A stretch of 44,925 nucleotides of DNA from a virus, in the IMG/VR virus record IMGVR_UViG_3300042691_023051, positions 1-44,925 of that record, one strand, 5' to 3'. The notes below the pieces were generated by a model. It made no database searches. It was given only the letters and a program-made list of their open reading frames with translations, and had not been told where the DNA came from. Below, piece by piece: positions 11,293-30,546 of the stretch. The translations under genes and the position numbers were made by a program. Numbering within the stretch: the first letter of the stretch is position 1; every line of letters starts with the position of its first letter.

Positions 11293-14103
11293 ATGGACAT
11301 AAATGAAAAATTTGAAAAGTTAATAACAGAAAATGAATATGTCGATCAACATAATTTTTTGGTGTCAAAGGTGGCACCTATGTTGGTAATACATCATACG
11401 GATTCATTGGACGAAATTAAAAAGAAAAAACGACTGGCAAAAAAATATATTCGTCATTATGGATATTTCATGCCATTGTATCCACACATTATGAAAACAG
11501 GAACTCCACCAGAAGAACCAGCGACGGACACCTCGGCAGAACCTGCGGTGGCAGAACCATCACCATCCGAAGTGTCGTTCTTTTATCCAGATTCAATTGG
11601 TCCAGAACAAGACGATGAGTTTTTAAATAACGAAGCAATGTCAAGTACAGAACGTATGCGTCGTTATAATCGCCGTCATCCAGAAAAAGTTCGTAGCTAT
11701 TTAAAGAAAACTCAAAAAGATAGAGTTGCTCGTAATCGTGATCGTGCAAAAGCCGTAAAAAAACACGGAAAGGCTAAAATGAAAAATCATGATGTACACC
11801 ATCCAAATGGTGCACAGAATGGAAACTGGAAACTTGCACGTAAAGATCATGGTAGAGATAAAAAGAATGAAAATATAGAATACGTATATTTGTCTGAATT
11901 AATGGAAGGTATGGTACCAAATGGTCCGTGGCAGTTAATATCCGAAGGTGGTGCTGCCGGACACTTAGCACATCCATACGAAGATGATGAATTGACATTT
12001 GCCGACGTTAAAGAAATGATTAAACGTGGTCTTGTCGGAGGACTAGACGCAGAAGCACCGGTCACGGAAAAACTTGATGGACAAAATATTATGTTCACTG
12101 TACGTGATGGACAAGTGGTATTTGCACGTAATAAAAGTCAAGTTAAACAGCAAGGTAAAAACGCATTAGACGCCACAGGATTACGTCAAATGTTTGCTGG
12201 TCGTGGTAACATTGAAAAAGCATTTGGTGGAGCTGCTGACGATTTACAACGAGCTGTTAATGCATTGCCTGAAGAAGAACGTCAGAAGATGTTTGCTGGC
12301 GGATCAAAATTTATGAATGTAGAAATCATCTTTCCAGACACTAAAAATGTTATACCATATGATAAGAGTGTGTTGGTATTCCACGGTACAGTTTCATATG
12401 ACGCCGATGGAAATGAAACTGGTCGTGATATAGAAGATAGTAAACGATTATCTGATGCTATTACTAAAGTAAATGCACAGCAACAACAAACATTTGGAAT
12501 ATCAGGTCCACGAAGTATAAGTTTTAACGATGCGGATACTGCACAAAATATTAATAAACTTAAGATGTATGGTTCGCAAGTTGCGCGATTACAATCCGAA
12601 TTTGACTTAGATGACAAAAATACTATCGAAGATTACAAACGCGCCTGGTGGTCACGAGAAATTGATACTATGGGAGTTGATTGGACGCCGGAAGAAAAGG
12701 AAGGATTAATTTCCAGATGGGCATTGGGTGATAAAAAATTTGGAGTTAAACATATAGAACATCCAGATAAAAAGAAATTTTTTAGAGAATTCGAAGCCAA
12801 CGAATTACCAAAACTCCAGAAAACCGCAACCCGTCCGTTGGAAAGTATTTTTTTACGTGTTGGGGCCGATACATTAAAACGAGTAACAAACTTCTTATCA
12901 GCAAACAATCCACAACTCGCTTCCTCGTTGAAGCAAGAACTTGTTGATACTATAAAGACTATACAAGCAACGGATGATGAAAATAAATTAGCTAAACTAC
13001 AAATACAAATAGAACGATTGGATGATATTGGTATAGAAAATATTATTCCATCCGAAGGTTTGGTGTTCATGTACAATGGAAATCCATATAAGTTTACGGG
13101 TACATTTGCTCCTGTAAATCAAATTTTGGGTACATTGAAGTTTGCTAAAGGAAAAGCAGAAGAAACACCACCGGAACCTGAAAAGTCAAGTCCCGAACCC
13201 GAAACCCCTCCTGTAGAAAAACCAACACAAACGACCGGACAACCTGAAGAACCATTGATTGGTGCTCCAAAAACGGTGGGTATTTTTGCAGGACGATTCC
13301 AACCATTTCACGCCGGGCATTATAGTATCTATCAAGCAATGGTGAAAAAGTTTGGTAAGGATAACGTATACATTGCATCAAGTAATAAGACGGATGCAAC
13401 AAAATCACCATTTGATTTTGCAGATAAAAAACAAATCATGACTAGAATGTTTGACATGCCAGAGGACAAGATAGTACAGGTACAAAATCCATATGCTCCT
13501 AAAGAGATATTGGAAAAACTACCTCCAAATACAATATATGTTACTGCTGTCAGTCAAAAAGATTCAGAACGACTATCCAAAGGAAAATATTTTAAACCTT
13601 ACGAAGAAACTCCAGAAACGGAGAGAAAATCTTTTGGGGATGCTGGATATTACATGATTGCCCCGGAAATGCAACTACAATTACAGGGTAAAAATGTCAG
13701 TGGTACACAAATTCGTTCTATTATGGGAAATCCAAATATAACGGATAGAGCAAAGCAAGAAATATTTACTATGATATATGGTAAATTTGATCAAGATATT
13801 TTCAAAAAAATCACCACCACAGCCACGGAGTCGGAAGAGGCGTTGAAACTAACACAACAACATGGTGGTGAAAAAGCTGCAAAAGCAAAAATAAAACCAA
13901 CAGCAAAAATTACTGCAACGTCACAAGAACCAAAAAAACCAAGAAAACAAGCAAAATCGCAAGAACCAGAGAAGGGTCCAGATAATTATAAACCTGGTGA
14001 AACGTGGACGACCGATGGTGGAAATTTTGGTGGTAAGAATAGTAAAAATTTATTTAAGTATTTTGACACAATAGACAAAGCAAAGAAATTTGCAAAAACA
14101 TAA
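11293..14103 (+). CDS. Ligase-type nucleotidyltransferase fused to NMN-adenylyltransferase-like domain
   Basis: A 936-residue, apparently three-part protein. Residues 1-200 are charged, with a Pro/Glu linker (70-95), a basic RMRRYNRRHPEK stretch and an HHPNG...NGNWKLARKDHGRD segment of unknown role. Residues 220-620 carry ordered covalent nucleotidyltransferase motifs: KLDG (260-263, Lys260 the likely AMP-accepting lysine), FMNVEIIF (motif III-like), VLVFHG (IIIa-like), EGLVF near 589 (IV) and PYKFTG near 600 (V). After a Pro/Glu linker, residues 660-840 form an HxGH-type adenylyl/cytidylyltransferase (GRFQPFHAGH at about 668, VSGTQIRS at about 802). The C-terminal 90 residues are Lys/Pro-rich. 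Both domains appear intact. The reaction is not determinable here; NMN adenylylation or another nucleotide transfer are options. Confidence 0.75.
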   Translation: MDINEKFEKLITENEYVDQHNFLVSKVAPMLVIHHTDSLDEIKKKKRLAKKYIRHYGYFMPLYPHIMKTGTPPEEPATDTSAEPAVAEPSPSEVSFFYPDSIGPEQDDEFLNNEAMSSTERMRRYNRRHPEKVRSYLKKTQKDRVARNRDRAKAVKKHGKAKMKNHDVHHPNGAQNGNWKLARKDHGRDKKNENIEYVYLSELMEGMVPNGPWQLISEGGAAGHLAHPYEDDELTFADVKEMIKRGLVGGLDAEAPVTEKLDGQNIMFTVRDGQVVFARNKSQVKQQGKNALDATGLRQMFAGRGNIEKAFGGAADDLQRAVNALPEEERQKMFAGGSKFMNVEIIFPDTKNVIPYDKSVLVFHGTVSYDADGNETGRDIEDSKRLSDAITKVNAQQQQTFGISGPRSISFNDADTAQNINKLKMYGSQVARLQSEFDLDDKNTIEDYKRAWWSREIDTMGVDWTPEEKEGLISRWALGDKKFGVKHIEHPDKKKFFREFEANELPKLQKTATRPLESIFLRVGADTLKRVTNFLSANNPQLASSLKQELVDTIKTIQATDDENKLAKLQIQIERLDDIGIENIIPSEGLVFMYNGNPYKFTGTFAPVNQILGTLKFAKGKAEETPPEPEKSSPEPETPPVEKPTQTTGQPEEPLIGAPKTVGIFAGRFQPFHAGHYSIYQAMVKKFGKDNVYIASSNKTDATKSPFDFADKKQIMTRMFDMPEDKIVQVQNPYAPKEILEKLPPNTIYVTAVSQKDSERLSKGKYFKPYEETPETERKSFGDAGYYMIAPEMQLQLQGKNVSGTQIRSIMGNPNITDRAKQEIFTMIYGKFDQDIFKKITTTATESEEALKLTQQHGGEKAAKAKIKPTAKITATSQEPKKPRKQAKSQEPEKGPDNYKPGETWTTDGGNFGGKNSKNLFKYFDTIDKAKKFAKT

Positions 14104-16972: not shown

Positions 16973-17284
16973 ATGGGTTTAAATATGACTAAACAAGAGC
17001 TTGTCCAGATAATCCGTGAAGAATTAAAATCTGTTCTTCATGAAATTTTAGGTTCAGAAGCAACCGTACAAACACCAGATGCGGAATTGGATGAACGAAC
17101 CGTATCTCGTCGTGAACCACCTCGTAAGATGACCAAGCCACAAATTAAGGGTCGTGATGGTATTGGTAAAAAACTATTAAAAAATAAGAGAGCTGTGTCT
17201 TACTTCAAAAAGAAGTTTGGGGCAGATTGGAAATCATATTTGTACGCATCTGCTACCAATAAAGCAATAGATAAAAATAATTGA
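16973..17284 (+). CDS. Small basic hypothetical head-region protein
   Basis: A 103-residue protein; the ATG at 16973 or the in-frame ATG at 16985 (MTKQELVQIIREELKSVLHE) could start it. From 16985 the first 20 residues form an amphipathic helix ending L-H-E, reminiscent of a prohead-protease site. The remainder is strongly basic (RREPPRKMTKPQIKGRDG, KKLLKNKRAVSYFKKKFG), so DNA binding or internal head location is possible. No family is recognised. It lies between terminase and other small proteins preceding portal. Confidence 0.55.
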   Translation: MGLNMTKQELVQIIREELKSVLHEILGSEATVQTPDAELDERTVSRREPPRKMTKPQIKGRDGIGKKLLKNKRAVSYFKKKFGADWKSYLYASATNKAIDKNN

Positions 17285-17285
17285 T

Positions 17286-17573
17286 ATGAAGTATAGAGAT
17301 TTTTTTCCCGAATTGTTTTGTGAGGGGTGTGGATGTGACCAAAAAACGGAAGAATATCCGTATGGTGGTTACAAAGTTACCCAACGTGATGTGGACGCAG
17401 ACGAACAGTCTGAAACACATTATCCGCACAAACGAAGAGATGCTATGGGTCAGGAAGACGCTGACATTAACAACGACGGAAAGATAGATTTGACGGATAA
17501 GATGTTAAAAGCTAAACGAGACATATATAAGAAATATTTGTTAGCTAAAAAGAAAGGTCAAAAAACATTGTAA
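17286..17573 (+). CDS. Small protein with dockerin/EF-hand-like calcium loop
   Basis: A 95-residue protein starting one base after the previous stop. The N-terminus [17 protein letters not shown] resembles a short capsid-targeting peptide followed by a Cys cluster. Residues 54-80 contain [18 protein letters not shown], with the loop D60-x-N62-x-D64-G-x-I-D68-x-x-D71. This is the dockerin/EF-hand calcium-binding pattern, followed by a helix KMLKAKRD. The same block recurs in the next gene ([11 protein letters not shown]), so the pair shares a duplicated module. Calcium binding is predicted from the pattern; function is unknown. Confidence 0.6.
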
Positions 17574-17590
17574 TTTTTGGAGATGTTCGG

Positions 17591-18181
17591 ATGATTAGAT
17601 TAATGGGATTAGTAACAACACCGGCCATTGGTTCGAAACCAGTGGGATCTGTACATGAAGTTACTACAGATACAGATGGTAAATTGGACCAACGTGCACG
17701 TTTAGCTACTACACTTCGTAAAATAAAAGAACGTGGTGGTTTGACGGACGAAGAAAAGAGACATCTCGCTGAAATATTAGAAAAGTTGGACATGGTTGGA
17801 CAAGAAGATTCTGATATTGATAATGACGGTGATGTTGATTCGTCCGACAAATATTTAAAAGCTCGTCGTGATGCTATTGGTAAAAATATAGACGAAGCGT
17901 TACCACAACCTGGTACCGAACAAGATTCTGGTGAAGAAGTTGATGATCATGAAGGTCATATGGCAAAGTCAGACTTATTAGCTATTCACAAACACGCCGC
18001 TGAAATTTACAATATGTTGGGTGAAGATGAAGAGTTGGAGGGTTGGGTTCAAGCAAAAATCACCAAGGCTGCAGAATATATGAACGCGGTATACCACAGC
18101 TTGTCATACAATAAGACGAAACCCGCATCAATTGGAACGGGTATGGGAGCACCGGCGGATAAGTCTGGTGGTAATATATAA
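17591..18181 (+). CDS. Hypothetical protein with dockerin/EF-hand-like loop
   Basis: A 196-residue acidic protein; ATG 17591 has GGAG 9 nt upstream. Residues 70-94 contain [19 protein letters not shown] followed by LKARRD. The loop is D75-x-D77-x-D79-G-x-V-D83-x-x-D86, closely matching the block in the preceding gene. The C-terminal region is helical ([20 protein letters not shown], then [14 protein letters not shown]) and ends in a Gly-rich tail. I recall this [16 protein letters not shown] phrase from head-region proteins of marine T4-like phages; no function is known. The stop overlaps the next start (TAATG). Confidence 0.6.
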
Positions 18182-18549
18182 TGAATCCCACTGTCGCTAA
18201 ATTCGTATCTACATTATTTCATGCACGTGACCAAGCACATGTTTTTCATTTACAAACCACTTCATTTGCTGCTCACAAAGCATTAAACGAATTTTACGAT
18301 GGTATCGTTGATTTGGTTGACTCATATGTAGAAACTTTTCAAGGAAGATATGGTATTTTAACTGGATATCCTCCGATGGGACGATTTTTGGAAGGTGACG
18401 GTGAAGTGTTAAAATATTTCACTGCTCTACAAAAATTTGTAGATACCACACGATCAACACTCCCCGAAAATAGTGATTTGAATAACATCGTTGATGAAAT
18501 TTCTGCACTAGTAAGTTCTACCATTTACAAGTTAAAATTTTTAAAGTAA
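18181..18549 (+). CDS. All-helical protein, DUF5856-like
   Basis: A 122-residue protein, translation-coupled to the previous gene (TAATG, one-base overlap). It is predicted to be four helices: residues 1-20, 22-55 (HLQTTSFAAHKALNEFYDGI), 75-100 and 105-120. The pattern AHVFHLQTTSFAAHKAL...FYDGIVDLVDSYVE recalls ferritin-like/Dps bundles and the phage family I know as DUF5856. The metal ligands of a true Dps are not clearly all present. The role is unknown. Alternative readings are a head-internal helical protein or a small regulatory protein. Confidence 0.55.
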   Translation: MNPTVAKFVSTLFHARDQAHVFHLQTTSFAAHKALNEFYDGIVDLVDSYVETFQGRYGILTGYPPMGRFLEGDGEVLKYFTALQKFVDTTRSTLPENSDLNNIVDEISALVSSTIYKLKFLK

Positions 18550-18570
18550 CTATTGACTCTGAGAATCACT

Positions 18571-19419
18571 ATGCTTAGATTAACAGATATTCTGTGTGAA
18601 GACCAATCACTTTCGGAAAAACAAGGGCCGTGTTGGAAAGGATATGAAATGGTCGGTATGAAAATGAAAGACGGTCGTGAAGTTCCTAATTGTGTTCCTA
18701 TAAAAGAATTAAATGGAACTATGGAAGAGGAATCGTCACGCGACCAAATCATGGCAACTGTTGTTAAGTGGAAGGGACAAGATGGTAAAGATCACGAAGC
18801 AACGTTAAAAAGTATATACGGTAGTACTTCTACATATCCGAAGGGGTCGCCTGCGAGAGTCGCTGCGGACAGAGTGTACGCGAGATTTAAAAATCCAAAA
18901 CCAGCAAGTGCACCTAAAAAAACATTTACCCCAAAACGAACAGGTAATTTTAAAAAACAATCTGAACCTGAATTTAGAGGTGATTGGGATGATTATGTAG
19001 GTTCTGAATTTGATAGAGAACGACGACTCTACGCAAAAAAGTACGGTAGTAATTCCAGATCAATGTGGGAAGGTGAAGCAACACCATCTGCGCATGATGA
19101 CGAATTACACGAAGGTGAATATTGTATGGAGTGTTTAATTGAAGTACTTAAAGGTGAACACCCAGAACAGATTGGAGAAGCGGAATACCAAGGCCGTAAA
19201 GTTCCTGTTGGTAAACCAATGCGTGGTGATGTTAAGAAATTTAAGGTCTTTGTTAAAGACCCATCAACCGGAAACATCAAAAAGGTAAACTTTGGTGACA
19301 AAAAGATGAGAATTAAGAAGTCCAATCCGGCTCGTCGTAAATCTTTCCGTGCTCGTCACAACTGTGATAATCCTGGACCAAGAACCAAAGCAAGATATTG
19401 GTCGTGTAGAAAGTGGTAA
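18571..19419 (+). CDS. Head-region protein with conserved basic Cys-rich C-terminus
   Basis: I start at ATG 18571 (282 residues); a TTG at 18553 is less likely. The first ten residues MLRLTDILCE fit a short targeting peptide ending L-C-E. Residues 16-45 hold a CWKGYEMVGMKMKDGREVPN module, common in several marine T4-like head proteins. The middle is Lys/Pro-rich. The last 75 residues are highly conserved-looking and very basic (KVPVGKPMRGDVKKFKVFVK, then RRKSFRARHNCDNPGPRTK and YWSCRKW). Packaged, DNA-contacting internal protein is an inference. It overlaps the next possible GTG start at 19413. Confidence 0.6.
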   Translation: MLRLTDILCEDQSLSEKQGPCWKGYEMVGMKMKDGREVPNCVPIKELNGTMEEESSRDQIMATVVKWKGQDGKDHEATLKSIYGSTSTYPKGSPARVAADRVYARFKNPKPASAPKKTFTPKRTGNFKKQSEPEFRGDWDDYVGSEFDRERRLYAKKYGSNSRSMWEGEATPSAHDDELHEGEYCMECLIEVLKGEHPEQIGEAEYQGRKVPVGKPMRGDVKKFKVFVKDPSTGNIKKVNFGDKKMRIKKSNPARRKSFRARHNCDNPGPRTKARYWSCRKW

Positions 19420-19421
19420 TT

Positions 19422-19733
19422 ATGAAAAAGAAAATTTCACGGGAACATTCCGATAAAATTTTAAAAAAACTAGGTCATAATTTTAATCCAACTGAATTTT
19501 TTTTGGGAATGAATACTGAGTTAGAACATCAAGATGTTACGCATGGAAGTATTTTACAAACTGCTAAAATTGCGTCGGCACATCTAAAAGAAAATCCAAA
19601 ATATTATAGTATATTGTTGAAAAACGTTGAAAAGAAAACAGAACAATTGGTAGGAGCGGGTGGAGTTATAAACGCAGCACCGAAACCAAAAGATGTAATG
19701 AAGATGCGTACGCATCTTAATAAGGAGAAATAA
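19422..19733 (+). CDS. Small hypothetical protein, DUF5661-like
   Basis: A 103-residue protein started at ATG 19422, with GTG 19413 overlapping the previous stop as an alternative. The central motif FFLGMNTELEHQDVTHG, followed by TAKIASAHLKENPKYYSILL, matches the small family I know as DUF5661, found in phages and bacteria. It is helical and basic. The function of the family is unknown. It lies in the accessory run between terminase and portal, followed 1 nt later by the next gene. Confidence 0.6.
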   Translation: MKKKISREHSDKILKKLGHNFNPTEFFLGMNTELEHQDVTHGSILQTAKIASAHLKENPKYYSILLKNVEKKTEQLVGAGGVINAAPKPKDVMKMRTHLNKEK

Positions 19734-19734
19734 G

Positions 19735-20088
19735 ATGATTAGATTGTCCGATATTTTACTAAATGAGGCTGGAAAAGAAAATCGAATTGTTCCAACTCGT
19801 TTGGTTGCAATTTTGGAAAAGTGTATGGGTGAATTGAAAGATTCCGACGAAAAACAAATTACGGAACTTCTTGCTCGTGTACTAGAAGGAATTACTAAAG
19901 TAAATGAAATGCCATATAATTATAATACGTTGACCGCGTGGCAATTAACTCATTTAGCAGAAGTTGAAGTTCCTGTTAAAACTTTACGTGAAAAGCTAAA
20001 TAGTTTACTTGGCAAATCGACAAAGGGATTAAACACAGAAACGGTAAGTCAAGCAGTCAAAGCTCTGGATGAGTTGTACATATATTAA
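19735..20088 (+). CDS. Small helical protein with prohead-protease-like N-terminal site
   Basis: A 117-residue protein with AAGGAG just upstream, inside the previous gene. Its N-terminus, MIRLSDILLNEAGKENR, carries LLNE followed by Ala at residues 8-12. The same five residues occur near the start of the major capsid protein and of the prohead protease. The rest is helical (ILEKCMGELKDSDEKQITEL; SKGLNT-like hinge; AVKALDELYIY). It is a candidate internal head protein processed by the gp21-type protease. It is immediately upstream of portal. No known family is recognised. Confidence 0.6.
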   Translation: MIRLSDILLNEAGKENRIVPTRLVAILEKCMGELKDSDEKQITELLARVLEGITKVNEMPYNYNTLTAWQLTHLAEVEVPVKTLREKLNSLLGKSTKGLNTETVSQAVKALDELYIY

Positions 20089-20101
20089 AAATTGAGGAGT
20101 T

Positions 20102-21979
20102 ATGGCTGAATATTCATTGTTTAATAGATTAAAGAAACTTTTTTCTTCCAACACTATCGTACGAAATGTTGGTGGGAAAAAATTAAAAATTGCGGACACA
20201 GACAATATCCAGGCATTTGTAAATCGTCGTGGTATTGACAGATATCACCGTGTATATTCATCTGGAACTGGTGGATATGGTTCCTCACATGGTAGATACG
20301 AAGCCGCTGCTGCGTTCCAAGGTTCAAGACTTCAGTTATTCCGTGACTATGATATGATGGATAACGACCCTATCATAGCATCGGTTCTTGATATATACGC
20401 AGACGAAAGTACTATTAAAGATGAATTTGGACAAATTATTAGTATTAAATCAAAAAATGAAGCTGTTCAAGAAATTCTCGATAATTTATTCTATGATATT
20501 TTAAACATAGAATTTAACTTATGGCCGTGGGTTCGTAACATGGCAAAGTATGGGGATTTCTTTTTGTATTTGGATCTTGATGAAGAGTACGGAGTCGTTA
20601 ATGCAATCCCATTGTCGGTGTATGAAACCATTCGTATCGAAGGTGAACAACCCGATCAACCATTCAGTGTTCGATTCAAAATAGAAAATGATTTCTTACG
20701 ATTGGGTAAGACTGATTTTGAAAATTTTGAAATCGCACACTTCCGACTATTATCCGATACGAATTTCCTTCCGTATGGTAAAGCAATGATTGAAGGTGGT
20801 CGTCGTGTATGGAAACAACTCCAACTCATGGAAGATGCGATGTTAATTCATCGTATCATGCGAGCACCAGATAAACGTAAAATTCTCGTAGATATTGGAA
20901 ATATCCCGCCAGGAGAAATTGACACGTTTATGAATCGAATTATGGATCGTATGAAAAAAACTCCATTGGTTGACCCACAAACCGGAGACTATAATCTTCG
21001 ATATAATATGATGAATATTACAGAAGATTTTTATCTACCTGTTCGTGGTAAGGATAGTGGAACGGACATACAAAATCTACCAGGACTCCAGTTTAATGCC
21101 ATCGAAGATATTGAGTATTTACGAAATAAGTTATTAGCAGCTTTCAAAGTCCCTAAATCATTTATTGGATATGAAGAAGATATTAATGGAAAAGCTACGT
21201 TGGCTGCACAAGATGTTCGATTCGCTCGTACAATCGAACGCATCCAGCGCATTATGGTATCGGAATTAACGAAGATTGCTATAATTCATTTGTATATACA
21301 AGGATTCCGTGACGAAGAACTTATTGATTTTGAATTGAGTTTAACATCTCCGTCAATTGTTTATGAACAAGAAAAAATAAACATGTGGAAGGAAAAAGTA
21401 CAACTTGCATCGGATATGGTAGCAACAAAACTTATATCGCAAGATTGGATATATCATAATATATTCGAAATGCCAGACGATGTTGTGTCAGAAGAACGAC
21501 AGAAAATTGTTGAAGATATACAACGTATGGCGGAGTTGACTAGAATCGAACAAGAAGGTTCACAACCACAACAAGAACCACCCGTGGAAGAACCCCCACC
21601 AGAAGAACAACCCGCCGAAGAAGAACCTGAGCAAATTGATGACGTAGATACTATCTTAGCTTCATTGGATGGAAATGATGAACCTGATAGTGAACTTGAA
21701 TCAGACGCTGAACTGGAAGAAGTCAAAATAGGACGACCAAAAACAGGTATGTCGTTTGGACAGGATAGTCATCCCAGAGGACGTGATCCATTGGGTAGTA
21801 GAGAAAATCATGATGCATTGTCTATACGTAAAAAACGGAATGATAAGAGAAAATCACCTCTGGCGTTGGAAATGCAACGATGGTTGGAAGTAAAAAACTC
21901 CAAACGAGTAATACTGGAAACCAAGGAAGTAACAGGTTCGTTGTTGGATGAAAGTAATATTTTGGACCTAGAAAACTAA
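20102..21979 (+). CDS. Portal vertex protein (T4 gp20-like)
   Basis: A 625-residue portal that forms the dodecameric ring at one capsid vertex, through which the terminase pumps DNA. Recognisable gp20 features include ADESTIKDEFGQIISI (about 98-113), the NLWPWVRNMAKYGDFFLYLD region, VWKQLQLMEDAMLIHRIMRA, and the PKSFIGYEEDINGKATLAAQD motif with following helix. The start follows GAGGAG. It is longer than T4 gp20 (524 by memory) because of a C-terminal extension: a Pro/Glu-rich stretch at about 480-510, an acidic patch, then a basic tail (KKRNDKRKSPLAL). A scaffold or terminase contact for that tail is possible but inferred. Confidence 0.93.
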   Translation: MAEYSLFNRLKKLFSSNTIVRNVGGKKLKIADTDNIQAFVNRRGIDRYHRVYSSGTGGYGSSHGRYEAAAAFQGSRLQLFRDYDMMDNDPIIASVLDIYADESTIKDEFGQIISIKSKNEAVQEILDNLFYDILNIEFNLWPWVRNMAKYGDFFLYLDLDEEYGVVNAIPLSVYETIRIEGEQPDQPFSVRFKIENDFLRLGKTDFENFEIAHFRLLSDTNFLPYGKAMIEGGRRVWKQLQLMEDAMLIHRIMRAPDKRKILVDIGNIPPGEIDTFMNRIMDRMKKTPLVDPQTGDYNLRYNMMNITEDFYLPVRGKDSGTDIQNLPGLQFNAIEDIEYLRNKLLAAFKVPKSFIGYEEDINGKATLAAQDVRFARTIERIQRIMVSELTKIAIIHLYIQGFRDEELIDFELSLTSPSIVYEQEKINMWKEKVQLASDMVATKLISQDWIYHNIFEMPDDVVSEERQKIVEDIQRMAELTRIEQEGSQPQQEPPVEEPPPEEQPAEEEPEQIDDVDTILASLDGNDEPDSELESDAELEEVKIGRPKTGMSFGQDSHPRGRDPLGSRENHDALSIRKKRNDKRKSPLALEMQRWLEVKNSKRVILETKEVTGSLLDESNILDLEN

Positions 21980-22042
21980 AGTATTGTAAATATTCGTTAT
22001 ATTTAATATATGACGGTATAATATGTCAAAAATGGAAAGCAT

Positions 22043-22921
22043 ATGAAATCAAACGTCAAGCACAACAAAATTCGTAATACGGGCATTCTCTTTGAATTAC
22101 TAGTCCGTAAAATCACATCCGACGCGTTGGAAAATCGTAAAAACGATACCGCCGTTAAATTGATGCGTGAATATTTCAATTCTAAAACCGAACTTGGTAA
22201 AGAATTGATTTTATACCGTTCGTTTTTTAATGTAAGTAAATTGAGTGAAGAAAAAGCATTTCAATTACTTAACATTATAACAGAACAACGTAAGAAATTG
22301 AACGAACGCGTGTTGAGTACACAGAAATATAATTTGATAAAAGAAATCAAACATCACTATGATTTAAAAGAATTTCTAAATGCAAGAGTTCCATCCTATA
22401 AGGTATACGCATCGGTATATAAAGTTTTTGATGGAACCATAAACGAAATTACAGATTTTGTTGAAATTGATAGTTTAGTTTCTGCTAAATTTACTATAGT
22501 AGAGCATCTTACGGGTAATCTTATTAATAAAGAAATTAAAAACGATACAAATTTATTTGAAACATTGAAAGGTCAAGAAGAAGATTTAAGACTATTATCA
22601 TATCGAATTTTAATTGAAAAATTTAATGAGAAATACGCAGGATTAAACGATAGACAAAAAAATCTATTACGAGAATATATTTACAATGTGTCAAACGGTG
22701 AACAATTAAGAAAGTACGCCATTAATGAAGCAGAACAACTTATTAAAGATTTGAAAATAAAAACTAATTTAATAGAAAATAAGATTACCCGTATTAAATT
22801 AGGAGAAGTTATTACTCAATTGGAAAAAATACGTACTGTTCAATTGGTTAAAGAAAATCACATGACCGCTTTATTGATAGCTTTGGAAATTACCAAAGCC
22901 GTAGACACTTTGAAGAGTTAA
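22043..22921 (+). CDS. Helical hypothetical protein between portal and prohead protease
   Basis: A 292-residue, strongly helical, Lys/Glu-rich protein started at ATG 22043 with GGAAAG upstream. The N-terminus contains RNTGILFELLVRKITSDALE. The rest is a succession of charged helices with possible coiled coil, for example near residues 235-270. There is no enzymatic motif. Similar-looking proteins occur at this position (after gp20, before gp21) in marine T4-like phages. This is recalled, not searched. It could be a prohead core component, but that is inference from position. A 63-nt gap before it has a TTATA-type sequence near 21997. Confidence 0.55.
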   Translation: MKSNVKHNKIRNTGILFELLVRKITSDALENRKNDTAVKLMREYFNSKTELGKELILYRSFFNVSKLSEEKAFQLLNIITEQRKKLNERVLSTQKYNLIKEIKHHYDLKEFLNARVPSYKVYASVYKVFDGTINEITDFVEIDSLVSAKFTIVEHLTGNLINKEIKNDTNLFETLKGQEEDLRLLSYRILIEKFNEKYAGLNDRQKNLLREYIYNVSNGEQLRKYAINEAEQLIKDLKIKTNLIENKITRIKLGEVITQLEKIRTVQLVKENHMTALLIALEITKAVDTLKS

Positions 22922-22924
22922 TTT

Positions 22925-23401
22925 ATGGAACAAAACGATAGAATCAGAGCTATGGTACGTAAGCTAATTGAACGAGAATTACACGAAATGACAACAACGG
23001 GGATGGTTGGTGGATATCTAACACCTGGTGCATTTCGTGGAAATTCCGATAAAAATGTAGATAAAGTTAAACACACTGCAACAGATTCTACGGGATTTAA
23101 ATTAACTCCACAAGGTGAAAAGGATGCAAAAACACCAGCGGATAAGTTGCAAGAAAATAAATATTATGCATATAAAAATGACACAACCAAGTCAGCACAT
23201 AGAAAAATAGCTGAAGCAATTTCTCAGTTAAATAAAAATTTGTATGAGGTCGAACGTACATTGAAAATGAATTCTCGTTTAAAAGTAGAGTCTGGAATTA
23301 CCAGCGAACAGTTGTGGAAACGTACGCAAGAAGGTTTAATTAAATTAGAATCACGATTGCTAAATATCGCAACTCGTATTCGTGAAATTCGTGGACAATA
23401 A
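22925..23401 (+). CDS. Small hypothetical head-region protein
   Basis: A 158-residue protein 3 nt after the previous stop. The N-terminal amphipathic helix DRIRAMVRKLIERELHEM (ending L-H-E-M) is followed by TTTGMVGGYLTPGAFRGN, a Gly/Thr phrase I have seen in several marine phage head proteins. A polar middle and two C-terminal helices follow (HRKIAEAISQLNKNLYEVER and LESRLLNIATRIREIRGQ). Function is unknown. Position suggests a prohead core or accessory role. The stop lies 1 nt before the prohead protease ATG. Confidence 0.55.
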   Translation: MEQNDRIRAMVRKLIERELHEMTTTGMVGGYLTPGAFRGNSDKNVDKVKHTATDSTGFKLTPQGEKDAKTPADKLQENKYYAYKNDTTKSAHRKIAEAISQLNKNLYEVERTLKMNSRLKVESGITSEQLWKRTQEGLIKLESRLLNIATRIREIRGQ

Positions 23402-23402
23402 T

Positions 23403-23990
23403 ATGCAAACATTACTAGTAGAATATAATGTTATCTCGTACGATGTTGGTTTGTTAAATGAAGCATCCGATATTTCAAAACCTCTTGTTTTGAAAGATGT
23501 AATATTACAACGAGCTGATTTTAAAAATCAAAATGGTCGTGTGTATCCGAAAGAAATTTTAGCGCGTGAAGCAGTTACGTATAAAAATAATTTCGTATCG
23601 CAACGCCGTGCATTAGGTGAACTTGACCACCCAGAAAGTCCTGTGGTCAATTTGAAAAATGTATGTTGTAATGTTACAGACCTTTGGTTCGAAGGTGCTG
23701 ATGTTAAGGGTAATATAGAAATTCTATCAACCCCTTCTGGAAATATTGTTCGTGAACTTATCAAGAATAATATTCGATTGGGAGTGTCATCACGAGGGAT
23801 GGGATCAGTAAAACAAATTGGTGAAAATTCTGTAGAAGTTCAAGAAGACTTTTCATTAATCTGTTTTGATATAGTTAGTAACCCATCTACACACGGGGCA
23901 TTCATCAACGAGAATACGCAGAATCAAATTATAACTCCTTATTCTCGTATAGATACTTTGATTTATGACTTTTTGGGTGAACTTAAATAA
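23403..23990 (+). CDS. Prohead core protease (T4 gp21-like)
   Basis: A serine-type maturation protease that trims capsid and scaffold proteins before packaging. I start at ATG 23403 (195 residues); a GTG at 23382 inside the upstream gene is possible. Catalytic candidates are His76 in GELDHPESP and Ser129/Ser130 in GVSSRGMGS, the classic gp21 pattern. FDIVSNPSTHGAFI follows near residues 158-172. Near the N-terminus LLNE-Ala (17-21) matches the likely cleavage site in the capsid protein, suggesting self-processing. Length is close to T4 gp21 (212 by memory). Confidence 0.9.
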   Translation: MQTLLVEYNVISYDVGLLNEASDISKPLVLKDVILQRADFKNQNGRVYPKEILAREAVTYKNNFVSQRRALGELDHPESPVVNLKNVCCNVTDLWFEGADVKGNIEILSTPSGNIVRELIKNNIRLGVSSRGMGSVKQIGENSVEVQEDFSLICFDIVSNPSTHGAFINENTQNQIITPYSRIDTLIYDFLGELK

Positions 23991-24005
23991 TTAAAAGGAG
24001 CGTTT

Positions 24006-24269
24006 ATGTTAACAGCATTAGGATTATTAGTAATAGGTGCATTGATTGTTTTGTGGGTACATAAACAAAATGATCAAACTTTCACAAAACCTATCAAGAA
24101 GATAGAAACTGTTACAAAGAATTTAGTAGATGTCAATAATGACGGTAAAGTAAGTCTTGCGGATGCGAAAGACGCTACTAAGCAAGTTGCTAAGAAAGCT
24201 GGTAAGGCTGCAAAGATAACAGCCGAAAAAGTAAAGAAAACCGTAGGTAGAAAAAAGAAGAGTGAATAA
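24006..24269 (+). CDS. Small membrane protein with EF-hand/dockerin-like loop
   Basis: An 87-residue protein with a strong AAGGAG ribosome site. Residues 2-19 are a hydrophobic membrane segment (LTALGLLVIGALIVLWV). A DVNNDGKVSLAD loop follows, with Asp42, Asn44, Asp46, Gly47, Asp53. The last 35 residues are a Lys/Ala-rich basic tail (KKAGKAAKITAEKVKK). One membrane helix plus a basic tail suggests an inner-membrane or DNA-contacting protein. The calcium-loop pattern is shared with two genes near 17.3-18.2 kb. Function is unknown. Confidence 0.55.
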   Translation: MLTALGLLVIGALIVLWVHKQNDQTFTKPIKKIETVTKNLVDVNNDGKVSLADAKDATKQVAKKAGKAAKITAEKVKKTVGRKKKSE

Positions 24270-24272
24270 TTT

Positions 24273-24644
24273 ATGAAATTGATGGATTTATTATGCGAAG
24301 TTTATAATAAAGCCACTATTCATGACTTTGTAAAGTTTGTTGCTCGTGAGTTGCAATTGCAACGATTACCGAAAAAAATTAGTTTGACCAACAAATCACT
24401 TGGTCAAACTTTTGGTACATACGCACCAGATTTAGACGAATTGGTGATATACGCGGGCAATAGACACACTGTCGATATTTTAAGAACTTTAGCACACGAA
24501 TTAGTTCATCACAAACAAATGGAAACTGGAGTTTCATTGGATGGGTCCGATGGTTCTCCTATAGAAAATGAAGCAAATTCAATAGCTGGGGAATTGTTGA
24601 GAAAGTATCGATATAAAAATCCAGAAATTTATACGGAGAAGTAG
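24273..24644 (+). CDS. Minimal HExxH zinc metallopeptidase-like protein
   Basis: A 123-residue protein. The zinc motif H75-E-L-V-H79 is in LAHELVHHKQ, and a downstream acidic ligand candidate is in ENEANSIAGELL (Glu98 or Glu100), the usual gluzincin-like spacing. The first nine residues MKLMDLLCE resemble a capsid-targeting peptide with an L-C-E cleavage site; removal would leave a catalytic core of about 114 residues. There is no signal peptide and no membrane segment. It sits directly after the prohead protease group. Possible roles are head-internal peptidase, injected host-targeting peptidase, or cell-wall-related activity. The fold and activity are inferred from the motif. Confidence 0.6.
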   Translation: MKLMDLLCEVYNKATIHDFVKFVARELQLQRLPKKISLTNKSLGQTFGTYAPDLDELVIYAGNRHTVDILRTLAHELVHHKQMETGVSLDGSDGSPIENEANSIAGELLRKYRYKNPEIYTEK

Positions 24645-24645
24645 G

Positions 24646-25146
24646 ATGCCAGCAGTCAGTAAAGCACAACAAAAATTGTTTGGTATAGTTCACGCAATTC
24701 AAAAAGGTGGAGCAGATCCCTCAAAGTTTAGTCCGACTACTCGTAAATTGGCAGCCAAGATGTCTCATGCCGATGTTAAGAAGTATGCGACGACAAAAAT
24801 TAAAGATTTACCAAAAAAGATTCGTGAAATTTTGGCATCCGACGAGACTGCAATAGGTGGAACTCCTGTAACGGATACACCACCGGCCTCTACTGAACAA
24901 CCACACATTTCAAATGATCCAAAGTTGATAACATTCGATGAAGATTATAGTGAAAAACAAAATAAAATTTTAAGTGTTGTGAAAGATAAGCGACCAATTG
25001 AAATTGATGGAACAACAGTTGATTTATATACCGCGGCATTACTAACAAAAGTATTGCATAAATTATCTCCGGATAATCGTAAAAAAATGTTATCGTTACC
25101 AATTGAAAAAATGGTGGCAACCGCTTATAAATTAGTTACTAGGTAG
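24646..25146 (+). CDS. Hypothetical protein with DUF3008-like N-terminus
   Basis: A 166-residue basic protein with GGAG 7 nt before ATG. The first 60 residues (MPAVSKAQQKLFGIVHAIQK, then AAKMSHADVKKYATTK) match the short family I know as DUF3008, found in phages and bacteria with no known function. The C-terminal half is helical and hydrophilic (LYTAALLTKVLHKLSPDNRK). An unstructured Thr/Pro stretch (about 75-90) links the halves. It lies in the head-accessory run, before the HAD/Mom-like fusion. Confidence 0.6.
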   Translation: MPAVSKAQQKLFGIVHAIQKGGADPSKFSPTTRKLAAKMSHADVKKYATTKIKDLPKKIREILASDETAIGGTPVTDTPPASTEQPHISNDPKLITFDEDYSEKQNKILSVVKDKRPIEIDGTTVDLYTAALLTKVLHKLSPDNRKKMLSLPIEKMVATAYKLVTR

Positions 25147-25151
25147 TCAAT

Positions 25152-26633
25152 ATGCCAAAAACTTTATTTGTAAGCGATTTCGATGATACGTTGGCACAAA
25201 CGGATGCAAAAATTATTATCACAAAGGCGTCGGGTGAGGTCGTAGAAATGGACCCACCCGATTACGCGGTATATACCCCAGAACCAGGTGATAAATTTGA
25301 TTTTTCTGAATTTGAACAGTTGAAAAATCCTAGACCCATCCAAAGATTTGTCAAACTATTAAAAAACGCAGCAAATAATAAAAACGTTGATAAAGTTTCT
25401 ATATTAACCGCACGAGGACATACTCGTCCCGTCGCACAATTCTTAAAAATGATGGGAGTTACTTCCGGCGTGAGTATTGCTGCTATCGGAAGTTCTGATC
25501 CACAAAAGAAAGCAGATTATATAGAAAAACATATAAAAGATGGATATGACCGTATAGCGTTTATTGATGACTCACCAAAGAATGTTCAAGCAGTAAAAAA
25601 ATTACGTGATACATATCCAGAAGTAAAAATACTAATTCACCAAGCAAAAGAACATCCTGAAGAAAGTGAACCGAAAAAGGATACTAAACAAGATGTCGAT
25701 GTTCGTCCATTAGAAACTCAAAATGAATTGAGTCAAGCAAAAGAATGGATAATGAAACAACATTACATAGGACGCTGGCCCAGTGCGGTGCAGGCTAAGT
25801 TAGGTGTATATATTGGTGGTAAACTCAAAGGTGTTTTGTTATATGGTGCAACAATTCGTCCGCAAAGTGGAACCGAGTTATTTAAAAATGACCAAGGACA
25901 ACCCATAATGCAAAACAATCAAATGTGGGAACTTTTACGAGCATATACTACCGAAGATGCAAAGAAAGAAGTTGCCAATCTTGGTAGTATGGTCATTGCA
26001 AAAGGTAATGACTACATACGTACCAAAGCAAAGACAAAAGACGGTAAGCAGGTAAAAGCTATCTTAACGTATGCTGACGCAGACGTAGGACACACAGGTG
26101 GTGTGTACAAAGCAACCAACGCAACATATCTCGGTAAACAAAAACCATTACCGGTGTTCATAGTTCGTGATCCAAAAACAGACAATGAATATGAATTGCG
26201 AACATTAACTTCACTCGGTAAGAAAAAATTAGAAGATCGAGGTTTGGAAGTAACAAAACGCATGGGTGCGGGTAAACACAAATATGTATATCCATTGGGT
26301 AAAGACCAGAAAGAACGTGATGAGTTGATGTCGCAATTGTCTGTACCTATGTACGATTATCCAACAGGTGCTGATAACGAACAACCAAAACAAATACCCA
26401 ATCAGGCAAAAGAACGAGTTGCTAAAAAACAAAAACAGCCACAACAAACATCAAAGTCTGCGGGTACCACGATGCGGGATTTCTTCCAGACGGCAACGGT
26501 AAAAAATCCAGATACCGGTGAAGATATATTGGTTAGAAGTGCATTGAAGTATGATAAACAAAGTAAAGCATACATGGCAGCAAAACACGCTTCTGATGAA
26601 TTTGCTAAAAAGAATGGTATATCTTTAGGATGA
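25152..26633 (+). CDS. HAD phosphatase fused to Mom-like GNAT domain
   Basis: A 493-residue protein in two parts. Residues 1-175 are a HAD-superfamily hydrolase. Motif I is DFDDT (Asp9, Asp11), motif II SILTARG (about 83-89), a candidate motif III Lys lies in KKADYIEKH, and motif IV is FIDDS (about 137-141). Residues about 185-370 resemble the Mom family of phage DNA-modification GNAT proteins: KEWIMKQHYIGRWP, an LGVYIGG strand, an LLRAYTTEDAKKE region, and the hallmark YADADVGHTGGVYKATN followed by YLG. The 100-residue C-terminus is polar and Gln-rich, then ends in a helical, charged segment. Mu Mom modifies adenine; target and cofactor here are unknown. The stop overlaps the next ATG by four bases (ATGA), coupling it to a methyltransferase. 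Confidence 0.72.
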   Translation: MPKTLFVSDFDDTLAQTDAKIIITKASGEVVEMDPPDYAVYTPEPGDKFDFSEFEQLKNPRPIQRFVKLLKNAANNKNVDKVSILTARGHTRPVAQFLKMMGVTSGVSIAAIGSSDPQKKADYIEKHIKDGYDRIAFIDDSPKNVQAVKKLRDTYPEVKILIHQAKEHPEESEPKKDTKQDVDVRPLETQNELSQAKEWIMKQHYIGRWPSAVQAKLGVYIGGKLKGVLLYGATIRPQSGTELFKNDQGQPIMQNNQMWELLRAYTTEDAKKEVANLGSMVIAKGNDYIRTKAKTKDGKQVKAILTYADADVGHTGGVYKATNATYLGKQKPLPVFIVRDPKTDNEYELRTLTSLGKKKLEDRGLEVTKRMGAGKHKYVYPLGKDQKERDELMSQLSVPMYDYPTGADNEQPKQIPNQAKERVAKKQKQPQQTSKSAGTTMRDFFQTATVKNPDTGEDILVRSALKYDKQSKAYMAAKHASDEFAKKNGISLG

Positions 26634-27361: not shown

Positions 27362-27580
27362 ATGCACGTTGAGGTAAGAGGTGATGGAAAGGACGATTTA
27401 GAAAAAGCATTACGAATTTTTAGTAGAATGGTAAAAAAAGCAGAAATTGTTAATGAAGTTAAGAAACGTGAGTTTTACGTGAAACGTTCTAAGAAAAAAG
27501 TGTTAAAGCAACAAGAAGCATTACGTAAAAGAATTCGTGAAGAAAAGAAAATAGAGAAAAGAAAAAACTCGGATTGGTAA
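27362..27580 (+). CDS. Ribosomal protein bS21 homologue
   Basis: A 72-residue basic protein. The ribosome site GAGGAGG follows the preceding stop directly. The pattern MHVEVRGDGKDDLEKALRIF followed by SRMVKKAEIVNEVKKREFYV and KRSKKK is that of small-subunit protein bS21, which sits near the 3' end of 16S rRNA and affects initiation. Cellular bS21 is about 70 residues, so it is full length. Phage-encoded bS21 is known in pelagiphages and huge phages. It could replace host bS21 to favour phage mRNA (inference). Location just before the scaffold and capsid genes suggests late expression. Confidence 0.8.
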   Translation: MHVEVRGDGKDDLEKALRIFSRMVKKAEIVNEVKKREFYVKRSKKKVLKQQEALRKRIREEKKIEKRKNSDW

Positions 27581-27708: not shown

Positions 27709-28944
27709 ATGGCACAAATCACAAATCAACTTCTAAAGGATGCAATCGCAGATGCAGAAGCAGTTCGTCAAACTGCTATCGCTAATGCGAAAATTGCTTT
27801 GGAAGAAACATTCACACCTCAAATTAAGTCGATGCTAGCTCGTCGTCTTCGTGCAGAATCATACGAAGAAGGTGAGGAAGAAGAAGGCAAAGAAGTAAAA
27901 GGTGAAAACGCAATCACAGCACAATCGGGTCCAACAGAAGAAACTGCGAAGGAACAACCGTTCCAAGACGCAACACACGTATCGGGTGGTGGACCAGAAG
28001 ATACATCGGGAATCGGCAGTACTGATAACAAAGAACCGTCCGCTGCATCATGGGACTCGTCTGGTATTGATCAAGGAGGTGAAGGTGAGTCTGATTCCAG
28101 TACAGATTGGTATGACGATTGGTCAGAATCAGATTTTGACCTTGACGAAATTATCAAGGAATTGGAAGAAGATGTAGCAAGTCTCTCCGAAGAAAAGGAA
28201 GAGGAAGAAGGTGAAGAAGAAATGAGTGAAGGTTGGAACGAAGGTGAAGAAAAGGAAGTAGAAAAACTTCCAACAGCGGCACCAGCAGGAGTTCACACTG
28301 CGACAGTTCCAGCAAATTCATCGGGTATTGGTAAAGAAGTTGCTATGGACGGACAAGCATCCCCATCGGATGTTAATAAGTTCGTAACAGATCCTTCTGT
28401 ACCAAAACATGAAACAAACGGAGCACCAGCAATGGGTGCAGCTCCGATGGGTCATGGTGAAGAAGGTGGAGAAGAATTAGATCTTGAAGCAATTCTCCGT
28501 GAATTGGAAGCCGAAGACGATGCTGAAAAGCATGGTTCCGAAGAAATGGCTCATAAGGTAGATGCGCTTCAAAAAGAACTTGCAGAATATCGTACGGTTG
28601 TAAATGTCCTACGAGGCAAGCTACAAGAAGTAAATCTTCTTAACGCAAAACTTTTATTCACAAACAAGTTATTCAATAACAAGGCATTGACCAGTGAACA
28701 AAAGGTCGCTATTGTGGAAAACTTTGATAGAGCAACCACAGTACGTGAAGTTAAGATTGTCTACACAACACTTGTTGAAACACTCAATACAACAGCTCGT
28801 GCAATGAAGCGTCCAGCTAAGTCAACGAAGATTGTAACAGAGGGTTTAGCAAGTAAGGCAACACCAAGTACAGCTCCAAAGGCTGAAATCTTGGAAGAAA
28901 ATACTCTTGCAAAGAGATTACAACAACTCGCAGGCATTTTATAA
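27709..28944 (+). CDS. Prohead core scaffold protein (T4 gp22-like)
   Basis: A 411-residue very acidic protein. GGAG 9 nt upstream favours ATG 27709 over 27694. The N-terminus MAQITNQLLKDAIADAEAVR is helical. A long Glu/Gly/Ser-rich acidic middle (about 45-180) and a second acidic block (about 250-280) follow. The C-terminal helical region (KVDALQKELAEYRTVVNVLR, NKALTSEQKVAIVENF) ends in KRLQQLAGIL. Position immediately before capsid, composition and C-terminal helices fit gp22, the internal scaffold that the prohead protease digests. Several L/I-x-E sites are present. It is longer than T4 gp22 (269 by memory) and may absorb gp67/gp68 functions, which are not otherwise seen. Confidence 0.82.
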   Translation: MAQITNQLLKDAIADAEAVRQTAIANAKIALEETFTPQIKSMLARRLRAESYEEGEEEEGKEVKGENAITAQSGPTEETAKEQPFQDATHVSGGGPEDTSGIGSTDNKEPSAASWDSSGIDQGGEGESDSSTDWYDDWSESDFDLDEIIKELEEDVASLSEEKEEEEGEEEMSEGWNEGEEKEVEKLPTAAPAGVHTATVPANSSGIGKEVAMDGQASPSDVNKFVTDPSVPKHETNGAPAMGAAPMGHGEEGGEELDLEAILRELEAEDDAEKHGSEEMAHKVDALQKELAEYRTVVNVLRGKLQEVNLLNAKLLFTNKLFNNKALTSEQKVAIVENFDRATTVREVKIVYTTLVETLNTTARAMKRPAKSTKIVTEGLASKATPSTAPKAEILEENTLAKRLQQLAGIL

Positions 28945-28965: not shown

Positions 28966-30546
28966 ATGTCAGGTGTACAAGATTTTTTAAGTGACGCAGG
29001 CTCGGCACATCGCATTGTAGTTGAGAAGACTCGTCAATTAGCAGGTAAGTGGGAAAAGTCAGGTCTTTTGGAAGGATTAGCTGGTCATGAAAAGCAAGGC
29101 ATGGCTGTCATGCTCGAAAACCAAGCTTCACAACTTCTTAACGAAGCAACAGTAACAAACCCAGGTGGTTCAGGTACGGCTGGTGAAAACTGGGCAGGTG
29201 TAGCACTTCCATTAGTACGTAAGGTTTTCGGTTCAATCGCATCGAAGAACTTCGTATCAGTACAACCAATGAACCTCCCAGCAGGCTTGGTATTCTTCAT
29301 GGATTTCAAGTATGCAAACACTGGTGGTGGTAGAGAAAAGTCAGCAGGTGAATCACTCTACGGTACAACATCTGGATCAGGTGTATTACCACGCGGTGGT
29401 TTCTATGGTGCTGGTGAATTTGGTTATTCAATCAATAACCAAACGGCAGCAGTAACAGTAGCAGCAACCGGAACGGCATCATATGCAGATGTAAACTTCA
29501 ATGATTTATACTCAGCATCAGTTGCAACAAACGGTTTCCGTTATTATGACGTTGCACTTTCAAGTTTGACAAATGCAGACGTAAATGCAGTTCGTGGATT
29601 CCGTGTATCAGGATCTGTAGTAGACTTTGACGCAACATTGTTGCCAGAATTTACTAAGGTAGTTGGTACAAATGTTCGTTTCATTGTATCATCATCTGCA
29701 ACAGGTACAATCTCAGCTGTTGACTTCTTCAAGCAACCAACTGACACAACTCGTGGTGACTTCGAAGATCGTACAAACTCAGTAGATAACTTGAACATTC
29801 CACAAATTGATTTGGAACTTCGTTCAGAAACCATCGTTGCTAAGACACGTAAGTTGAAGGCAGTATGGTCACCAGAACTTGCACAAGACTTGAATGCATA
29901 CCACAGTGTTGATGCAGAAGCAGAACTCACAGCAATGTTGAGTGACTACATCGCAACAGAAATTGACCTTGAAATTCTCGACATGTTAATTTCCAATGCA
30001 ACAACAACCGAATACTGGAATGCAGAAGTCGGTAAGGTATGGAATGGTTCAGCATTCGTTTCAAGTGCAACATTAGCTGGACAAGCATGGACAAACATGA
30101 CCTGGTTCCAAACACTTGGTCAGAAGATGCAGAAGGTTTCAAACCGTATCCACCAACTCACAATGCGTGGTGGTGCTAACTTCGCAGTAGTATCACCAAC
30201 AGTTGCAACAATCATCGAAACCATCCCTGGTTTCATGGCAGCAACAGACGGTGACAAGATGGAATTCTCAGGTGGTGTAACTAAGGTTGGATCATTCCAA
30301 AACCGTTACACAATCTACAAGAACCCATATATGTTAGAAAATACCATGTTAATGGGCTTCCGTGGAAGTAACTTCCTAGAAACTGGTGCAGTATATGCTC
30401 CATATATCCCACTTATCATGACTCCGTTGGTATACGATCCAAACAACTTCACACCACGTAGAGGCGTAATGACCCGCTACGCGAAGAAGATCGTACGTCC
30501 GGAATTCTTCGGCAAGATTTACATCGACGGATTGTCAACAATCTAA
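28966..30546 (+). CDS. Major capsid protein (T4 gp23-like)
   Basis: A 526-residue HK97-fold major capsid protein with an AAGGAG ribosome site. The N-terminal propeptide (about 60 residues: MSGVQDFLSDAG through ENQASQLLNE) ends at LLNE60-Ala61, matching the (L/I)-x-E rule of T4 prohead processing, close to the T4 site after residue 65. The mature region includes VRKVFGSIASKNFVSVQPMN, typical of gp23. The TKVGSFQNRYTIYKNPYM and RYAKKIVRPEFFGKIYIDGL segments are conserved near the C-terminus. Length equals T4 gp23 (521 by memory). No gp24-type vertex paralogue is in the window. A strong terminator follows. Confidence 0.95.
   Translation: MSGVQDFLSDAGSAHRIVVEKTRQLAGKWEKSGLLEGLAGHEKQGMAVMLENQASQLLNEATVTNPGGSGTAGENWAGVALPLVRKVFGSIASKNFVSVQPMNLPAGLVFFMDFKYANTGGGREKSAGESLYGTTSGSGVLPRGGFYGAGEFGYSINNQTAAVTVAATGTASYADVNFNDLYSASVATNGFRYYDVALSSLTNADVNAVRGFRVSGSVVDFDATLLPEFTKVVGTNVRFIVSSSATGTISAVDFFKQPTDTTRGDFEDRTNSVDNLNIPQIDLELRSETIVAKTRKLKAVWSPELAQDLNAYHSVDAEAELTAMLSDYIATEIDLEILDMLISNATTTEYWNAEVGKVWNGSAFVSSATLAGQAWTNMTWFQTLGQKMQKVSNRIHQLTMRGGANFAVVSPTVATIIETIPGFMAATDGDKMEFSGGVTKVGSFQNRYTIYKNPYMLENTMLMGFRGSNFLETGAVYAPYIPLIMTPLVYDPNNFTPRRGVMTRYAKKIVRPEFFGKIYIDGLSTI

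Follow-up and report, generated by a model that had tools for sequence, protein, structure and literature searches.

We identified short N-terminal leaders on several proteins encoded in the head module of a T4-like myovirus and interpret them, with a probability of roughly 0.83, as propeptides that target proteins to the prohead core and are cut by the S77 protease, a modular means of loading the capsid like that of the T4 capsid targeting sequence. The DNA analyzed, here called the window, is the whole 44,925-nucleotide stretch of IMG/VR record IMGVR_UViG_3300042691_023051 (positions 1 to 44,925). Related viruses carry the same tag, or one of two interchangeable alternatives, on considerably more than a hundred different proteins. 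This interpretation draws on the register of the leaders, their conservation, the presence of the protease, L-x-E sites in the capsid proteins and the exchange of leaders on homologous cargo.

The window contains a T4-type large terminase (at 15348; Terminase_6N, 1.8e-10) and, on the plus strand, a gp20-like portal protein without a leader (20102..21979), a prohead protease of the Peptidase_S77 (T4 gp21) family (23403..23990; PF03420, E 1.4e-27), a gp22-like scaffold recognized by its position and EAIADA-type start (27709..28944) and a major capsid protein of the Gp23 family (28966..30546; PF07068, E 3.6e-72). Terminase, portal, protease and capsid protein thus lie in one module, as expected of a Gp23-type T4-like head. 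Gene starts were taken from a simple tiling caller, and searches with Pfam, PHROGs and PADLOC left most window proteins without an assigned function. By portal, the nearest annotated isolates are Microcystis phage Mel-JY01 (54%) and Flavobacterium phage immuto (52%), and 80 IMG/VR contigs encode portals 68-85% identical to that of the window. The protease has an LVE of its own close to the N-terminus (LVE7), and the predicted cleavage of the major capsid protein, LNE60|A (DNA to 29145), falls in the alignment column of the T4 gp23 site LTE|A. Since the capsid proteins of the window clade and of immuto carry [LV]xE|[AN] in this column, the specificity of the window-clade protease is plausibly that of gp21.

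Leaders of the first class follow the pattern M-x(1-2)-Φ-x-D-Φ-Φ-x(1-2)-E and open four window ORFs (17286, 18571, 19735 and 24273), bearing out the initial annotation, which had described a shared leader on small proteins around the portal. Counted back from the final E, all four read [hydrophobic]-x-D-[hydrophobic]-[hydrophobic]-x-E, with one additional residue in MIRLSDILLNE. ORF 17286-17573 begins with MKYRDFFPE(LFCE) (17286..17324, plus strand; MKYRDFFPE or MRYKDFFSE in relatives), which holds two candidate cut sites, FFPE9 and LFCE13, ahead of cargo with a dockerin/EF-like Ca loop. ORF 18571-19419 (282 aa) begins with MLRLTDILCE (18571..18600, plus strand) at an internal ATG, the frame opening mechanically at TTG 18553, and comprises a CWxGY...VPNCVP module and a basic C-terminal module; an internal IGE|AEY (19171..19179, plus strand) is predicted to be a second cut site, releasing the basic module of ~80 aa. 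The pre-portal ORF 19735-20088 begins with MIRLSDILLNE (19735..19767, plus strand) and ORF 24273-24644 with MKLMDLLCE (24273..24299, plus strand; MKLMDLLYE and MRLKALLNE in relatives). The protein encoded by the latter is metallopeptidase-like (HELVH), the fold assignment being weak (DUF6782, E 9e-4). The pattern opens 4 of the 50 window genes, where shuffled N-termini give an expectation of 0.12 (Poisson P about 8e-6); because the regular expression was set post hoc from window data, the weight rests on relatives and on blind scans. Of the genes in the window and three related contigs, it opens 14 of the 88 that lie between terL and MCP and none of the 384 outside this interval, a count over related and hence not independent genomes, and across six genomes it is found at 2.8% of gene starts versus 0.56% of internal methionines. 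A looser pattern, any L-x-E near the N-terminus, was kept out of the statistics as too permissive. The small genes 17591, 18181, 19422, 24006 and 24646 of the same region have no leader; 18181-18549 encodes a DUF5856 protein (PHROG 858, named starvation-inducible regulator) that likewise stands without a leader in the head modules of many relatives.

The register of these starts is shared with T4 head propeptides. The T4 record confirms that IPII and IPIII start with MKTYQEFIAE, the ten-residue peptide named in the initial annotation, and T4 gp24 starts with MAKINELLRE; MLRLTDILCE equals both in length and, like them, has hydrophobic residues at positions 4, 7 and 8, an acid at 6 and E at 10. 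The agreement is exact for the 18571 protein and, counted from the E, extends to 24273 and 17286, with 19735 one residue longer. Exchanging the last E of the T4 IPIII peptide for D leaves packaging intact and blocks cutting. In T4, residues 4 and 7 of the peptide govern targeting and packaging and residues 8 and 10 govern processing, the cut falling after L/I-x-E (PMC9026906), and gp24, Alt and the internal proteins are N-terminally processed (PMC5694885). Like the gp21-cut T4 capsid targeting sequence of IPI, IPII, IPIII, gp24 and Alt, the leaders go with variable, often basic cargo and an S77 protease encoded in the genome; one leader type stands on unrelated proteins, and an L/I/F-x-E signature is present in capsid and core proteins. 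In Pfam and PHROG scans of the window proteins we detected no family annotated as an internal protein and no homology to IPI, IPII or IPIII. The system described here differs from that of T4 in its far greater number of cargo kinds, which have no Pfam or PHROG match to the T4 internal proteins, in having three leader classes that can replace one another, one of which copies the scaffold tail, and in the location of several leaders in the portal region itself.

The leaders of the second class are amphipathic helices ending in L-x-E, which open ORFs 16973 (MTKQELVQIIREELKSVLHE) and 22925 (RIRAMVRKLIERELHE); these are the two further proteins with helices ending in LHE that had been noted earlier, and both endings are present (VLHE and LHE, respectively). 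The leader of ORF 16973-17284 (16973..17095, plus strand) has one site at the end of the helix (VLHE, residue 24, DNA to 17044) and a second, conserved one (ELDE, residue 41, to 17095), beyond which the protein is strongly basic (+15 in 62 aa). That of ORF 22925-23401, which occupies the position of T4 gp67/gp68, ends in LHE|MTTT (22925..22987, plus strand).

Conservation of the leader in relatives, on which the initial annotation had staked its reading, held up. The pre-portal gene 19735 adjoins the portal in nearly all relatives, and 69 of its 70 orthologues begin with a class I leader, which takes 22 distinct forms (MIKLTDLITE, MAQLKDLLNE and MSTKLKDLLSE among them) in front of diverging cargo. 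L-x-E with a variable x is kept in three window families: LxE|[MAI][TS]T in the 22925 family; [LM]DE|[RK][TS]V at the second site of most 16973 orthologues, as LDE|RTV, MDE|RTV or LDE|KSV; and [LI]xE|A[EQ]Y, with x being G, E or Q, before the basic C-terminal module in about 60 members of the 18571 family. The same interval in relatives holds leader proteins that are absent from the window, namely a 51-residue basic protein (MIKLVDILLTE|KWTKKYKKSINCSNPKGFSQKAHCAGRKKR) and a KWVDISRKD...HPPCG protein. Some observations count against the propeptide reading: the L-x-E ending the class II helix is lost in some orthologues, in which the second site remains; the CWxGY family of a more distant clade has only [IL]xE, without the long leader; and in distant relatives leader clusters lie apart from the head genes (100 kb versus 117-127 kb in G024, and 127-129 kb versus 15-25 kb in G015), though the T4 ip genes too lie apart from genes 20-24. 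The leaders might instead serve as docking helices in the structure of ordinary head or neck components, staying uncut and undelivered, with L-x-E a part of the helix. This would suit 19735 and 22925, which are conserved syntenic head genes beside the portal and the protease. We regard it as improbable, given that L-x-E is kept while x varies and that the same leader also stands on kinases, Nudix proteins, a nucleotidase, ATP-grasp proteins and hydrolases.

That range of cargo emerged from a search of the 2.9 million viral contigs of IMG/VR with a degenerate DNA pattern encoding MIKLxDILxE, which yielded at least 151 matches in at least 120 contigs. Of the 151 matches listed, 148 start ORFs of at least 60 aa, with a median of 5 open codons upstream, and 25 of the 120 listed contigs carry two or three leader genes each. 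With the leader removed, the cargo behind the listed matches falls into at least 62 clusters (BLASTP). Among the matches listed are ATP-grasp, Zeta-toxin-like and other P-loop proteins, kinases, Nudix proteins, an exonuclease, a 5'-3' deoxyribonucleotidase, M23 and lysozyme-like hydrolases and many unknowns, the function hits in this set (Pfam, PHROGs, PADLOC) being mostly weak; the endolysin-like hydrolases are not obvious head cargo and count against the propeptide reading. Permuting the codon order of the pattern left 8 matches across the entire collection: seven with frames of at most 32 aa and one within a longer frame, none convincingly opening a gene. The reversed pattern gave 0 matches in the 16 genomes tested. 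An S77 protease is present in 18 of 33 contigs with leaders (6 of the 7 longer than 100 kb) and Gp23 in 15 of 33; most of these contigs are fragments, so a missing S77 or Gp23 says little, and 1 of 5 control contigs also carries both. Positions fixed by a search pattern are unusable as evidence of conservation, and the class I pattern fixes most positions.

The matches listed also show codon bias within the leader: Ile7 is ATA in 142 of 151 (94%) versus 46% in the same ORFs, and Asp6 is GAC in 63% versus 18%. Such bias would fit a start that is shared as nucleic acid and not as a peptide signal, be it a late promoter, a translation enhancer or a DNA cassette copied recently. We consider this very unlikely: among the matches listed, 130 distinct 30-mers encode the same residues; the orthologues of the window genes hold the pattern with other residues and other codons; unrelated peptides of classes I, II and III replace one another on one cargo; and the class III peptide sits a few residues inside the protein, off the start codon. 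On codon diversity and leader swaps, a reading of the leaders as DNA signals only was rejected. As a separate observation, the codon bias in contigs L108-L227 looks as if leader DNA had passed between genes by recombination. Upstream of the leader genes in the same contigs there is no Shine-Dalgarno signal, and the sequence is A-rich at -3 and -6, as expected for Bacteroidota hosts.

Exchange on homologous cargo is expected of leaders that act as equivalent tickets; it is otherwise hard to explain. A class I leader (MIKLIDILKE, contig L212) and a class III leader (KRMQELAGIIVEE, L335) precede cargo 58% identical over 164 aa, and a class I leader (MIKLLDILHE, L151) and a class II leader (MKISELRQLIKETVEE, L217) precede cargo 76% identical over 157 aa. 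Similarly, GKQVGTLYHFT proteins stand behind MIKLLDILKE and behind MKKSQLKQLIKEEILKALNE, and the basic RYWSCRKW module of the 18571 protein follows leaders of class I in L151, L164 and L141 and of class II in L217. Relatives of the Ca-loop/acidic region of 17591 carry a class I leader in L166 and one of LAGI type in L109. There may be a fourth leader, FDL+K[FY]L.EnKL(T), seen in L002, L133, L135, L156 and L159, for example in immuto gp076 and gp077; its cargo is class I-led elsewhere.

The third class, found in relatives, has the form KRMQxLAGI[IL]xE and copies the extreme C-terminus of the scaffold. In the window the corresponding scaffold peptide is KRLQQLAGIL (28912..28941, plus strand), with ILEE sites just before it (scaffold end EILEENTLAKRLQQLAGIL), and no class III cargo was seen within the window. 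A blind scan with KRMQxLAGI gave at least 128 matches in at least 120 contigs; among those listed, 44 lie at the extreme C-terminus of an ORF, mostly the scaffold, 81 near the N-terminus of other proteins (78 clear, 3 probable), and 3 elsewhere. The 81 listed N-terminal leaders belong to 63 cargo clusters. At offset 0-1 past LAG, [ILVM]xE is present in 59 of these 81 and in 2 of 81 for a control stretch, a difference that further argues against uncut docking helices. The scaffolds end in LAG[ILV] in 30 of 32 distinct N/C-terminal pairs, and in each of the 33 distinct scaffold C-tails an [ILV]xE ends 9-10 residues ahead of LAG (background 0.19). With the sites before LAG in scaffolds and after LAG in most cargo, the protease site is on the body side in both orientations. 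The cultured phage immuto encodes class I gp231 (MIKLIDLLTE) and class III gp230 (MKKQILSEQFKRMQFLAGIITE) near each other, with gp083, a gene of class III-like type, lying among its head genes. In this phage, whose host is Flavobacterium sp. LMO8, cuts are predicted at MIKLIDLLTE|S in gp231 (new start at S11), after LAGIITE in gp230 and gp083, after LLLE in gp087, at IISE|V in the scaffold gp067 and at VSE|A in the capsid protein.

The identity of the class III peptide with the tail of the scaffold, a prohead component, also bears on whether the leader addresses proteins to another phage structure, such as the tail, the baseplate or a replication compartment. Cell-wall hydrolases among the cargo and the distance of some leader genes from the head genes would accord with such an address. 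In the window clade the leader genes all lie between terL and MCP, however, and the register is common to T4 head propeptides, and we consider this alternative very unlikely. The propeptide reading accounts jointly for the register, position, protease, exchange and scaffold copy.

These observations provide the basis for a model of capsid loading. The first 9-20 residues of the leader would dock the protein on the scaffold core during prohead assembly, a class III leader taking the docking site, whichever it is, of the C-terminal tail of the scaffold itself. The S77 protease would then cut after [LIF]-x-E, and the mature protein would be freed inside the head before DNA packaging and retained there. 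In the window this mechanism would apply to at least four class I and two class II proteins; 19735 and 22925 are probably parts of the core, and 16973, 18571 and 24273 are probably loose basic or enzymatic cargo. Because KRMQxLAGI is copied from the scaffold with a body-side protease site in both, scaffold and cargo may compete for one dock and be released by the same protease. We think it more likely than not that a large group of aquatic T4-like phages uses an exchangeable loading code of at least three tags, in which KRMQxLAGI is the C-terminal docking peptide of the scaffold transferred to the cargo N-terminus. The class I leaders may also imitate the scaffold N-terminus, for example MSNKDLFKE|AIADA. 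The T4 internal proteins and Alt are ejected into the host. From the sequences we infer docking, cleavage and packaging, and the cargo here may be ejected in a similar way. The initial annotation had proposed that unrelated proteins share a capsid-targeting-like leader which a gp21-type protease can remove after L-x-E, and this part is strongly supported by the adjoining S77 protease, the T4 internal protein/gp24 register, orthologue conservation, the cargo clusters and class exchange. Its further suggestion of an arsenal injected with the DNA fits less well, as 19735 and 22925 look like core components and not variable cargo; no window protein matched an anti-host function.

Two other systems invite comparison. 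Ejection proteins of the giant phages phiKZ and SPN3US are likewise inner head proteins with propeptides, cut after x-x-E by a gp21-like protease, and differ from the present leaders in that these propeptides are mostly longer than 100 residues and cut at S-x-E or A-x-E (PMC5694885). The polyvalent proteins of phages and conjugative elements are enzymatic effectors predicted to travel with DNA, ARTs and metallopeptidases among them, in long multidomain chains with internal metallopeptidases (PMC5512222, in which the term 'capsid targeting' is absent), whereas here single, mostly small proteins each have a short tag and the head protease is used. We found no prior report of these leaders or of the LAGI motif in the open-access papers searched. 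The virion cargo of uncultured phages is mostly unrecognizable because the mature proteins share nothing. With a short readable tag, many 'hypothetical proteins' would become predicted packaged and possibly injected proteins, and repertoires could be listed straight from metagenomes; a putative cargo-loading code is now readable from sequence and testable. The scaffold-tail copy offers a concrete, testable answer to how a prohead draws in unrelated proteins, and MIKLxDILxE, the class II helix and MKKQLNEIKRMQQLAGIIKE would be candidate natural tags for loading proteins into phage heads.

Further genes of the window were noted in passing. Within the head module, 25152-26633 encodes a HAD-type phosphatase domain fused to a Mom-family domain (PF25680, 4.7e-27), which suggests a DNA-modification enzyme; in contig L129 the HAD part sits behind a MIKLLDILLE leader. 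Between protease and scaffold, 27362-27580 encodes a small basic protein resembling ribosomal protein bS21, and the Mel-JY01 gene at the corresponding place is annotated RpsU. Finally, 11293-14103 encodes a 936-aa protein with a cytidylyltransferase-like (NMNAT-type) domain (PF01467); its counterpart in G015 starts with an LLE-ending leader, and those of other relatives have a terminal domain similar to the 24273 metallopeptidase.
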